Below are positions 29,001 through 38,000 of a DNA stretch of 64,000 nt, piece by piece; the first letter of the stretch is position 1; each line of letters starts with the position of its first letter. This stretch comes from Paralichthys olivaceus (taxonomy: Eukaryota > Chordata > Actinopteri > Pleuronectiformes > Paralichthyidae), in assembly GCF_024713975.1 (NCBI RefSeq), contig NC_091116.1:12182986-12246985 (forward strand), given 5' to 3'. The position numbers and the translations under genes were made by a program. The notes beneath the pieces are model-generated. The model was not told the origin of the DNA. It did not search any database and worked only from the letters and a program-made list of their open reading frames with translations.

Positions 29001-32000
29001 CGCATCTGTCGACTTGTGTAGATGTGGACGAGTGCAGCTCCTCTCCGTGTCACGTTAACGCCAGATGCATCAATGGACTCGGATCTTTCCAGTGTCAGTG
29101 CCAGTCCGGTCTCTACGGTGACGGCTTCTTCTGTTCCCAACAGGAAGGTCAGTAAATCAAATATAGAGATTTTAACTATCATGCTCACATTTGTATTCAG
29201 ATAAGCAGTAGGAGATTTTTTCACGCAAAATAACTCGTGAATGGAAAGAATCTGAGGGATTTACTTGAATATGTAAGAGTGTTGTCGCATAAAATGGTAA
29301 AATCTAAAATACAAAGACAGAAAAATGATCAAATGTTGTAATGATTGTTTCTCTACAGGACAGACAGTCCGTCCAAAGAGCCAGTGTGAGCAGCACAGAG
29401 ACAGTCTGCAGAGTGGAGTGGATCTGAGTGGAGAGCTAAGTGTCGGAGCCTTCATCCCTCAGTGTGACTCTGACGGACGCTACCGTCAACTGCAGGTGAT
29501 CACTGACTGACAAGAGCGCACGGCCGACCGATGACCCGAGTAAAAAACATGCAGATTTTAAAAGGTGTCATTATTTATTCCAGTGCCACGGATCCACTGG
29601 ACATTGTTGGTGTGTGGACATTAGGGGACAGGAGAGAGCAGGAACCAGGACTCCACCTGGTACGGCTCCCAAAGACTGTGACAGACCAGGTATCAACTCT
29701 TACTTTTCCTTCACATACACGGGTATTTAATTAAAAGATTGGTGTATATGTTTAAATGTTCCTGTGTTTTATTCATCTCTATCTCCCCAGATGAACCAGA
29801 GCGTCCTAAAACTCACTGTGAGCAGCACAGAGACGGTGTTCAGACGACCAGTCCAGAGGGGTATCCTCTACTCGGAGTGTTTGTGCCTGAGTGTGATGCT
29901 AATGGACACTACAGACAATTACAGGTCAGAGCTTTATTTCATTGACAAACGTTATTTTCATACCTGTAATCTAACCTTGTATTGACATTAAAACAAATTC
30001 ATTTTGATTTTTTTTCCGATTTTAGTGCCACGACTCCACTGGACATTGTTGGTGCGTGGACAGTAGGGGGCAGGAGAGAGCAGGAACCAGGACCTCACCT
30101 GGTACATCACCTGTCGACTGTGGCCGACCAGGTGAGTCTGCTGTGAAACACTTATTCACATATTGGATTGGCTGTACGCACTTTATTTAATCTCAGGGAA
30201 TGTCATTCTTCTGTTTCCGTTGTATTTGGATTTGAGCCTGTTTTCCTATTTGACAAATTCCTTTAAATTAACTTAGTTTCAGATTATTTTCCTTTTAAAA
30301 CACAACACTTTATTTTTTATTTTATCTTACTCACTTTGATTTATCTGTTCTTTCTTGGGATTTTATTGTTTTATATAAACTACATTTCTATTAATTTCTA
30401 TGCTTATATTTTTGATTTTATCAGGAAATGTGTCGAAGATATTAATTTATAGTGTAAATGTATTTTGTGTTTTCCTCCCCAGATGAACCAGAGCGTCCAA
30501 AAACTCACTGTGAGCACCACAGAGACAGTGTGCAGACCACGGGTCCAGAGGGAGACCGTCTAATCGGAGTGTTTGTGCCTGAATGTGACGCTAATGGACA
30601 GTACACATCACTGCAGGTCAGCACCTGATGACTGACGGATAAACTGACAGCTTTTTTGAATTTAACCTCAAGTAACATTAAATATTTTTCAGTGCCATGG
30701 TTCTTCTGGACATTGTTGGTGTGTGGACAGTAGAGGACAGGAAAGAGCGGGTACCAGGACATCGCCTGGTGCAACACCTACAGACTGTGACAGACCAGGT
30801 GAAAAGAAAAAATACACAAACCTCTCCCTCGCTTCGACTCCACACGATCGTCTGAAACATATTTGTTATGAGCAGTGACGGTACCAGCATCAGCACGCGT
30901 ATTATGTCATGGCTCTCTAAGGCTTTCTCCGTGAACCCGTGAGACCCCAATTTCTCAAGTCAATGACAAGTCAAACAGACACCACATTTATGTGAGTGTG
31001 TGTCTAACCTTGTGAGTGGTGCACTGCTGAGGTTATTGGGTCATAGCCTTGGAATGCCTGGAAAAACAGGTGATATCACTGTGAGACGGAGTGTGTGTGT
31101 GTAACGGGAAGTTCAAAATTAATTATGTGGGAGTGCAAGGGTAACGTGAAGCTAAAAAACCTGAGGAAACAAAGTACATGTGGTGTCGCAGTTGTTTTCT
31201 TTCTTAAATGAACAAAAGGTTTTACTGTATATTAGCTGGATAACATACATCTCAAACTTCAGGGCATAGTCAAGAAGATTATGGATATCTGCTGTTTTGC
31301 AATCATTTAATATAAACATAATCCTGTTATTGTCCATTTGTCTCATCCAGCTGAACCAGAGCGTCCTAAAACTCACTGTGAGCACCACAGAGACAGTGTT
31401 CAGACCACCAGTCCAGAGGGGCATCCTCTACTCGGAGCATACGTACCTCAGTGTGATGCTAATGGACACTACACTCCACTGCAGGTCAGCATCTTACTTG
31501 TTTACATGTGATTTATTGATGTTTGATATGAGTCTGACTTGCATTAAAAAGAATTTTAGACCTTATACCTAAATTATCATTCGTTATTGCTTCAGTGCCA
31601 CAGCTCTACTGGTCACTGTTGGTGCGTGGACAACAGGGGGCAGGAGAGAGGAGGAACCAGGACTTCACCTGGTACACAACCTAAAGACTGTGACCAACCA
31701 GGTGAGGGGAGAGATCCTGCACAATGTTCCTTCATGAATCTTTTTATGAATTCATGCATTAATCCAATTTTTTGAAATCTCCTCAGATGAACCTGTGCGT
31801 CCTAAAACTCACTGTGAGCAGCACAGAGACAGTGTTCAGACCACCAGTCCAGAGGGGTATCCTCTGCTCGGAGTGTTTGTGCCTCAGTGTGATGCTCATG
31901 GACACTACACATCTCAACAGGTATCATTGTGATTGTGTTGTAAATAAGAAATACTGCTTTATTCAGTATCTGTATTGTCGTTCACACAACTGTTACGTTT

Positions 32001-35000: not shown

Positions 35001-38000
35001 TTAACACACAGAGGGAGAGAGGGAGGCCTGTGTAAACATGAGTGGAAGTCTAAAGTGGTTTCGGGTTTAGTTTTAAAGCTCTGTTATCAAGTGAGTTATT
35101 AAAGGGATTTTACAAGATAAACTGTTTTGACAAAAGCAAAATGTGTAGACGTGTCTGTGCCTTTTTAAACACAGGGTCTCCTCACACCATTTATCAAGCG
35201 CTCGACCTATCACTGTCATATAAACCTCCAACCCTGAGTGTCTCCTCCACTCTCTCTCCCTTAATCTACCCGATCAATAAAAGTTACAACGCCATAACAT
35301 ATCTCAAAAAGCTCCATTGAATAGAAAATTAATATATAGTTGAATAAATAACCATAAATTATAACCGAATAGGATCTGAACTCTTATTTTACGGCCATGT
35401 AAGATTATATTTAGCTTTAAAATTAAAACGTTTGATTCGTGTCCCCCTCAGTCCATGTTGCTCCGACCCAGCGACCCGAGAGTGTGTGTGAGCGATGGAG
35501 GGTCAGTTTGATTGAGCACTATGGTGGAAGACCAGACCCACAACAATACGTGCCCCAGTGCGAGCCCGATGGACAATTCAGGTACACAACACACACACAC
35601 ACTCAAAAACACTGTGTGCAGCTTGAGCAGAAATGACTCAGTCCTGCTTATTTCATGTGTTCGTCCCTCTCAGTCCAGTCCAGTGTTACGGGGAGACCAC
35701 ATACTGCTGGTGTGTGGACCAGGACGGACGGGAGGTTCCTGGTACACGATCGCACGACGTTGTCAAACCTGCCTGTGAGTGTCTTACCTCCTGTAACACA
35801 CACCTCTTGTTGTTTACATCGTGGAAATAACATGAAACTTTGCTGTTTCTGAAAACTGTTTGTTTCCGTTCAATCCTCCAATCCAGGCCTCCCCTCAGTG
35901 GCCCCTCCCACCGTGCGGCCACTGCCCCGTCCAAATGTTACCCCCCCGCCGAACGCAGACGTCACGCTGCTGTACGCTCAGGGACAGAAAATCGGGGCGC
36001 TGCCTCTCAATGGGACCAGGCTCGATGCAACTCGCTCCAAAACACTGCTGACTCTGCATGTGAGAGACGAAGAGCTGCGTGTCTGCTTGTGTTCATGTTC
36101 TGATGTTGTTGAAATGTGTTAATGTATCTCATTTGTGTGCTTGTGTGTCTCCAGGGTTCCATAGTTGTTGGTCTCGCCTATGACTGCAAAGACAACCAGG
36201 TCTTTTGGACAGATTTGTCTGCAAGAACAATCAACAGAGCTTCAATGGTGCCGGGAGCCGAGCCTGAGATTCTCATTAACACAAGTAAATCCCACACTCC
36301 TCTCCTCGCACTTCATTCCAAGTATAACTGCAGTGTTTTAAACGATCTCAACACTTTCTGTGTGGTCTCTGCAGATCTGGTCAGTCCAGAGGGTTTGGCC
36401 GTGGACGTCAAACGTAGGCTGATGTTCTGGGTCGACTCCACACCTGACCTGATTGAGAGCGCTAACCTGGACGGCAGCGGGAGGAAGACGCTGTTCGACA
36501 CAGACTTGGTCAACCCCCGGGCCATCATAGTGGTCTCTTCAACTGGGTAAACACCTTTTTCTGGACATTTGTGGTTGTGCTGATCTTCTCGTGACACCAG
36601 AGATGGTTCTCACATTCAGCCCCTCTGGAAAAATTCCAGTAAAAGATGAGTGCAGGTCTGAAAGCAGCTTTACAAATCTCCTCCCAGACCAAGACACAAA
36701 CAAGAGCCCACACACACTTGGAGTGTAGCGTCCTGGAGGTGCTCCGCCCTGCAGAATGAGACGCAGCCCTCACTGTGTCTGCTTTTATATCAGACCAGGG
36801 AACAGATGGGTTTCAGCCCATTAGCACAAGCATGAAATCAAACACACACGTCCTCAGACGGAGCGAGTCAAGCAACAAGGCCTGTAACTAATTCATTAGC
36901 ACAGTGAACGTTACGTTGTAAAGCCGTTTGACAGAAGGGATTTTGTTGAGTCTGGTTTCTGGAGCCGAGAGACAGTGAGGTAAACACATCAGTGTGAGTC
37001 GGGCCGTCCGAGGAACATCCACGGGTTCGGGTTTCAGGGAGGAGTTTTTCTTTGGTCGTGTATTTTTGATAATTCAGTCATTAGTCATTAGTTTGTGACG
37101 TTTAGTGCTTTCACTGTCGGTGTTGAGCCAAGAAAACTGCTGGATTTACTGATGCTATTAACCCTGGACACACACACACACACACACACACACACACGCG
37201 CGCACACACACACACACACACACACACACACACACACAGAATATAGGAGGTCTTCGTTGGTCGGCTCTCCAGGAATAACATCTGCTTTTCATCATCGCAA
37301 CTAATCACATAATCAACAGGTACACGTGTGTGTGTGTGTGTGTGTGTGTGTGTGTGTGTGATACAAATGATTAAACATAGCAGCAATAACCCAAATCATA
37401 AAACCTCAAATGTATGTTTCTCATTATTAGTTTGACAGTTTATTTTCTGCCTCAAGGTCAAGTGTGTGTGTGTGTTTTGAAAAAAGGCCAAGTCCTAAAG
37501 GTAATTACTGCTTCACACGGGTACACTTATGATTAAGCACATGCTTTGGGATTTCTGTGCCTGCACATGTTCCCCTTATACACACACACATACTTACACA
37601 CGCACAGACGCACACAGCAAAGCAAACACACAAAAAGTACAAGTACACACATTATAAAGGCATGCACTGCTCATCCATCACCATCTGCTCACCTATACAT
37701 TAACAACGTAACTTGATTTACACACTCGTAAACCCATGGTGTGTGTGTGTGTGTGTGTGTGTGTGTGTGTGTGTGTGTGTGTGTGTGTGTGTGTGTGTGT
37801 GTGTGTGTGTGTGTGTGTGTGTGTGTGTGTGTGTGTGTGTGTGTGTGTGTGTGTGTTGATTGCTCATGTGGTGTGTATTACCTGTAGTTCCCAGTGGACG
37901 ACCCACATGTGCACCATCATCCACAGATGAGAAGCTGTGTGGCGTAATGAGGAGCCCACACACACTCACACTATCGTCCTGAGCAAATGTTTGAAATAAC

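Follow-up and report, generated by a model that had tools for sequence, protein, structure and literature searches.

A nidogen gene of Paralichthys olivaceus, most likely nidogen-2, with a tandem array of nine thyroglobulin type-1 domains

Human NID2 carries two thyroglobulin type-1 (Tg1) domains and NID1 carries one, and forms of anuran saxiphilin exist with many more Tg1 repeats. One paper gives vertebrate nidogens "one or two thyroglobulin repeats" (PMC6177204), and a review reports fly and worm nidogens without these repeats and calls the domain composition of nidogens highly conserved across animals (PMC10972974). The nidogen-like protein XP_002125504 of Ciona, a predicted protein, has several Tg1 domains, but only three, and a long run in one secreted protein is known from human thyroglobulin, with ten in its first region (PMC3464141); frog saxiphilin has two, set within a transferrin-like protein rather than a nidogen (PMC10889554). 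The gene analyzed here is located on the plus strand of a 64,000-nucleotide stretch of the Paralichthys olivaceus genome (NC_091116.1, positions 12,182,986 to 12,246,985; hereafter the window) and encodes a nidogen, most likely nidogen-2, with nine Tg1 domains. The gene shares its kinds of domain (NIDO, G2F, EGF, Tg1 and LDLR-b) with the NID2 of human and mouse, and differs from the vertebrate description, which is descriptive and not defining, in having nine Tg1 domains instead of one or two.

The gene model was built by joining 38 recognized coding pieces, with GT-AG splice sites picked for their score in an approximate weight matrix and for matching phases; the presence of GT-AG at 37 of 37 junctions was built into the script, which allowed only such introns, and is not a result. 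Exons 1 to 38 extend from 11086 to 39172 (+) and form a single open frame with only one stop, at the terminus. The same was obtained with a mended exon 36, taken as 38467-38624 (CAG at the exon end, GTACAC opening the intron, frame kept) in place of a donor with a score of -6.6, while the end of the last exon is uncertain. Pfam and PDB comparisons of the resulting protein (1735 residues, the uncertain C-terminal 16 residues following GCLSG being omitted) revealed the order NIDO, EGF, G2F, EGFs, nine Thyroglobulin_1 domains and an LDL-receptor-b propeller. The defining parts of a nidogen were all recovered: NIDO (G1; PF06119, E 1.9e-56), the G2F beta-barrel (G2; PF07474, E 3.9e-30; PDB 1gl4, nidogen-1 G2, E 7.4e-56), EGF domains (PF12947, EGF_3, four stretches over the whole protein) and the G3 propeller (PF00058, Ldl_recept_b, E 2.6e-28; PDB 1npe, nidogen G3, E 4e-76). 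The top rows of the PDB sequence matches were propellers of the LRP family, above nidogen G3 and G2. An earlier note, made from the letters of the window, had named the gene nidogen-2; its identity as a nidogen agrees with the Pfam and PDB matches, and the choice of NID2 over NID1 is drawn only from the neighboring genes, as presented below.

In the model the array follows the EGF repeats and precedes the propeller, and Pfam recognized PF00086 (Thyroglobulin_1) in nine stretches (565.4 bits, E 2.6e-174). It comprises 712 residues, 54 cysteines and nine CWCV cores, of which modules 1 to 8 account for 634 residues, and the features of the Thyroglobulin type-1A class (six cysteines, QC and CWCV) are present in nine of nine modules. 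The splice model, the Pfam stretches and the cysteine and CWCV counts thus bear out what the earlier note had reported, namely nine consecutive two-exon modules with six cysteines and a CWCV core each. Its figure of roughly 560 added residues is correct as the excess over two domains and falls short of the whole array, and its span of 29359 to 35774 fits the start of exon 15 and the end of exon 32, but cuts off the sixth cysteine of module 9, whose codon is split by an intron and is completed at 35887 in the next exon. Spacing within the modules is almost invariant: six of the modules have 24 residues between the first and second cysteines, and modules 1, 6 and 9 have 25, 18 and 23, respectively; the gap between the fifth and sixth has 21 residues in modules 1 to 8 and 20 in module 9, and the remaining gaps are equal in all nine. 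Exon pairs measure 134 + 106 nucleotides in six of modules 1 to 8, 137 + 106 in module 1 and 116 + 106 in module 6. The linkers among modules 1 to 8, from the last cysteine to the next first cysteine, have 12 residues in seven of seven cases, and that before module 9 has 15. In modules 1 to 8 the outer introns are in phase 1, and the inner intron is in phase 0 and lies immediately before the third cysteine; whole modules can therefore be added in frame. With the approximate matrix, low scores were obtained for the inner acceptors of module 7 (-1.7) and module 8 (-0.6) and for the donors after module 1 and inside module 5 (0.0 each) and inside module 9 (0.3).

The nine modules belong to two lineages, modules 1 to 8 forming one and module 9 the other. 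Protein identity is 58-92% among modules 1 to 8, in contrast to the diverged repeats of thyroglobulin, for which 14% is given (PMC3464141), and 34-43% between these modules and module 9; for all eight pairs with module 9 the synonymous divergence (dS) either exceeds 3 or could not be computed, and the inner intron is in phase 0 in modules 1 to 8 and phase 2 in module 9. The simplest history, and a likely one, starts from a two-domain ancestor, whose first Tg1 domain would have been amplified to eight and whose second, module 9, would have stayed single. Modules 4 and 6 resemble each other most, with the lowest dS of the 28 pairs (0.09), no synonymous difference in exon B and inner introns (31485-31595 and 32680-32774) that are 86% identical, which points to a recent event of duplication or gene conversion. 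Alignments obtained by blastn span two modules, with modules 4-5 against 7-8 (801 columns, 73%) and parts of 1-2 against 4-5 and 7-8 (71%), and these suggest copying in blocks of two. A strict history of block duplication was not adopted: among 28 pairs of linking introns only that of 4-5 with 7-8 was above the threshold, and weakly (z 3.9, 56% identity), and the trees were poorly resolved, with branches within modules 2 to 8 supported at 26-71% when built from codons and at 38-79% when inner introns were included. Module 1 was set apart with 89% support in the codon tree.

The ratio of nonsynonymous to synonymous divergence (dN/dS, Nei-Gojobori) was 0.15-0.43 in 28 of 28 pairs of modules 1 to 8, values that come from short sequences of 73-79 codons each, with no significance test and with gene conversion not modeled. 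A search of the window with the modules by tblastn, at E up to 1, gave no decayed or tenth module, the matches outside the array being at E 0.08 and 0.98 only. The low ratio in all pairs and the lack of a decayed copy in the window make the array look functional. By region, with boundaries of our own and loop names after PMC10889554, dN/dS was 0.21 in the linker, 0.33 in the helix with loop 1, 0.40 between the second and third cysteines, 0.06 in loop 2 and 0.26 in the core with loop 3, and it was 1.12 in three columns following the last cysteine; the low value of loop 2 is due to a high proportion of synonymous differences (pS 0.659), its nonsynonymous proportion (pN 0.094) being equal to that of linker and core. 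Four residue types were found in columns 28, 30, 41 and 76 of modules 1 to 8; with module 1 removed there were none with four, and the three-type columns were scattered. A concentration of variation in loop 1 was dropped, since it arose from a gap counted as a state and the recount showed scattered variable columns.

On balance, the probable explanation is that of a nidogen gene in working order, most likely nidogen-2, in which the first Tg1 domain was amplified to eight, giving a longer arm before the propeller and a mechanical effect. Tandem duplication of the two-exon unit between phase-1 introns would have produced the eight copies while the second ancestral domain was kept single. If all exons are joined in a single transcript, eight similar disulphide-linked beads with 12-residue gaps would come after the EGF rod and before the laminin-binding G3 propeller. 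The most likely effect would be a wider reach within the basement membrane between G2, which binds collagen IV and perlecan, and G3, which binds laminin. This lengthened arm is plausible from the domain anatomy. Several points weigh against it. Binding data on mouse nidogen-1 gave the rod no activity, and the rod of fly nidogen was needed for localization to the basement membrane, so that the rod may also serve in binding (PMC6177204). Several splice sites score poorly, and therefore modules may be skipped in the transcript. The number of Tg1 copies may also simply drift.

Such near-neutral drift, in which unequal exchange adds and removes phase-symmetric units and selection against misfolding keeps each copy foldable without the array having a new function, is rather unlikely and nevertheless a serious rival, because selection on folding alone would also give the observed constraint. 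The phase 1-1 units, the recent exchange seen in modules 4 and 6 (dS, exon B and introns alike), the blastn alignments across two modules and the variable columns spread over the whole module all agree with it, as does the three-domain predicted protein of Ciona (PMC3464141). Nine intact copies, constraint in every pair of modules 1 to 8 and a linker length that is constant among these modules are set against it, although they fit selection on folding equally well.

The thyropin class (MEROPS I31) inhibits cathepsins, and the array could be a multivalent thyropin of the basement membrane, modules 1 to 8 binding and inhibiting or buffering cathepsin-L-like proteases; this is considered unlikely. 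Profile comparisons, which covered solved structures only and in which module 1 was also run singly, had the two domains of frog saxiphilin as the highest-scoring single solved Tg1 domains both for modules 1 to 8 and for module 1. The profile of modules 1 to 8 scored 73.3 and 66.0 bits with saxiphilin, 48.2 with the p41 fragment and 44.5 with the best thyroglobulin domain among the three chains listed; with module 9 added the values were 70.6 and 65.8, 57.2 and 49.6, and module 1 alone gave 64.6 and 61.7, 45.1 and 40.3 bits, respectively. Module 1 and the first saxiphilin domain have a stretch of 12 residues in common, but the tenth domain of thyroglobulin is likewise similar around CWCV. Saxiphilin has been reported as an inhibitor of papain-like proteases (cathepsins) (PMC7863939, PMC10889554), and one review lists nidogens among the characterized human thyropins (PMC8322073). 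The same source, however, describes mouse entactin as not inhibiting papain and a human nidogen-1 domain as needing a 100-fold molar excess to inhibit cathepsins L and B (PMC8322073), and inhibition is not demonstrated for nidogen according to another review (PMC7863939). Cathepsin S cuts nidogen-1 in the Tg-1 region, and single thyroglobulin domains have been reported as substrates, the latter according to the title of a reference in that paper (PMC3429489). The modules themselves gave no sign of diversified binding loops, the variable columns being scattered once module 1 is removed, and the loop 2 ratio stems, as said above, from its pS and not from its pN. The more specific proposal of a matrix-anchored multivalent trap, with eight saxiphilin-like Tg1 domains beside the propeller guarding the basement membrane during remodeling or attack, is doubtful. 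An assembly artefact, or a mature transcript in which most modules are skipped, is very improbable: nothing direct speaks for it, and the weak scores at some splice sites are its one point in favor. No two modules are identical (83.5% over 363 columns in the closest whole pair, 4 and 6, introns included), constraint is seen in all pairs of modules 1 to 8, and the frame is lost when a single exon of a module is left out; omission of both exons would keep it and may occur.

The genomic context in the window fits NID2. On the minus strand, Pfam recognized an RLL domain (RTRAF family) in an open reading frame (ORF) at 42674-43045 and 7tm_1 in an ORF at 4894-5793, which encodes a rhodopsin-family receptor, putatively prostaglandin EP2-like. 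The human gene order is RTRAF-NID2-PTGDR-PTGER2, with RTRAF as the neighbor of NID2; if the two ORFs are the counterparts of RTRAF and a prostaglandin receptor gene, the gene is probably NID2 and not NID1. Other ORFs of the window were two connexins (Pfam Connexin) at 48423-48863 and 52898-53521 (+), an ORF at 58149-58622 (-) with a weak match to a hemopexin repeat (E 6.1e-05), which may be the fish hemopexin-like protein Wap65, and an ORF at 62657-64000 (-) of 448 residues that contains NHL repeats and is still open where the window ends.

The positions of the gene parts are collected in the table. The first EGF domain appears in the model without its first cysteine, and an exon within 20016-21852 (+) may be missing from the model. 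An RGD motif is present in the first of the three EGF repeats encoded by exons 12 to 14, at residue 640.

Positions in the window of the parts of the modeled nidogen gene (nid2, most likely assignment) and of its nine Tg1 modules
Feature	Position	Strand	Basis or remark
nid2 exons 1-7: N-terminus, NIDO (G1), linker	11086..20016	+	splice model, Pfam; short exons may be missing
nid2 exons 8-11: first EGF and G2F	21852..23626	+	Pfam G2F, PDB 1gl4
nid2 exons 12-14: three EGF repeats	27313..29147	+	exons phase 1 to phase 1; Pfam EGF_3
Tg1 module 1	29359..29689 (exons 29359-29495, 29584-29689)	+	splice model, Pfam
Tg1 module 2	29791..30131 (29791-29924, 30026-30131)	+	splice model, Pfam
Tg1 module 3	30483..30798 (30483-30616, 30693-30798)	+	splice model, Pfam
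Tg1 module 4	31351..31701 (31351-31484, 31596-31701)	+	inner intron resembles that of module 6
Tg1 module 5	31787..32113 (31787-31920, 32008-32113)	+	splice model, Pfam
Tg1 module 6	32564..32880 (32564-32679, 32775-32880)	+	18 nucleotides shorter, in frame, in the stretch between first and second cysteines
Tg1 module 7	33298..33630 (33298-33431, 33525-33630)	+	splice model, Pfam
Tg1 module 8	33722..34042 (33722-33855, 33937-34042)	+	splice model, Pfam
Tg1 module 9	35452..35774 (35452-35581, 35674-35774)	+	separate lineage, inner intron phase 2
nid2 exons 33-38: linker and G3 propeller	35887..39172	+	Pfam Ldl_recept_b, PDB 1npe

No report of an expanded Tg1 array in a nidogen was found in literature listings pairing nidogen with thyroglobulin and fish terms, a scope that leaves most subscription journals outside, and the word thyroglobulin is absent from the main text of two zebrafish nid2 papers (PMC5583359, PMC7044464). 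A scan of viral contigs with 159 residues (modules 4 and 5 and the start of 6) gave no match. Many fishes may share the expansion, and database records may already show it. A nidogen with so much longer a rod offers a natural experiment: it bears on whether the distance between G2 and G3, or the Tg1 domains themselves, matter in the linking of laminin and collagen IV. The eight close Tg1 paralogues are also material for finding out what makes nidogen domains poor inhibitors, as reported, and those of saxiphilin strong ones.

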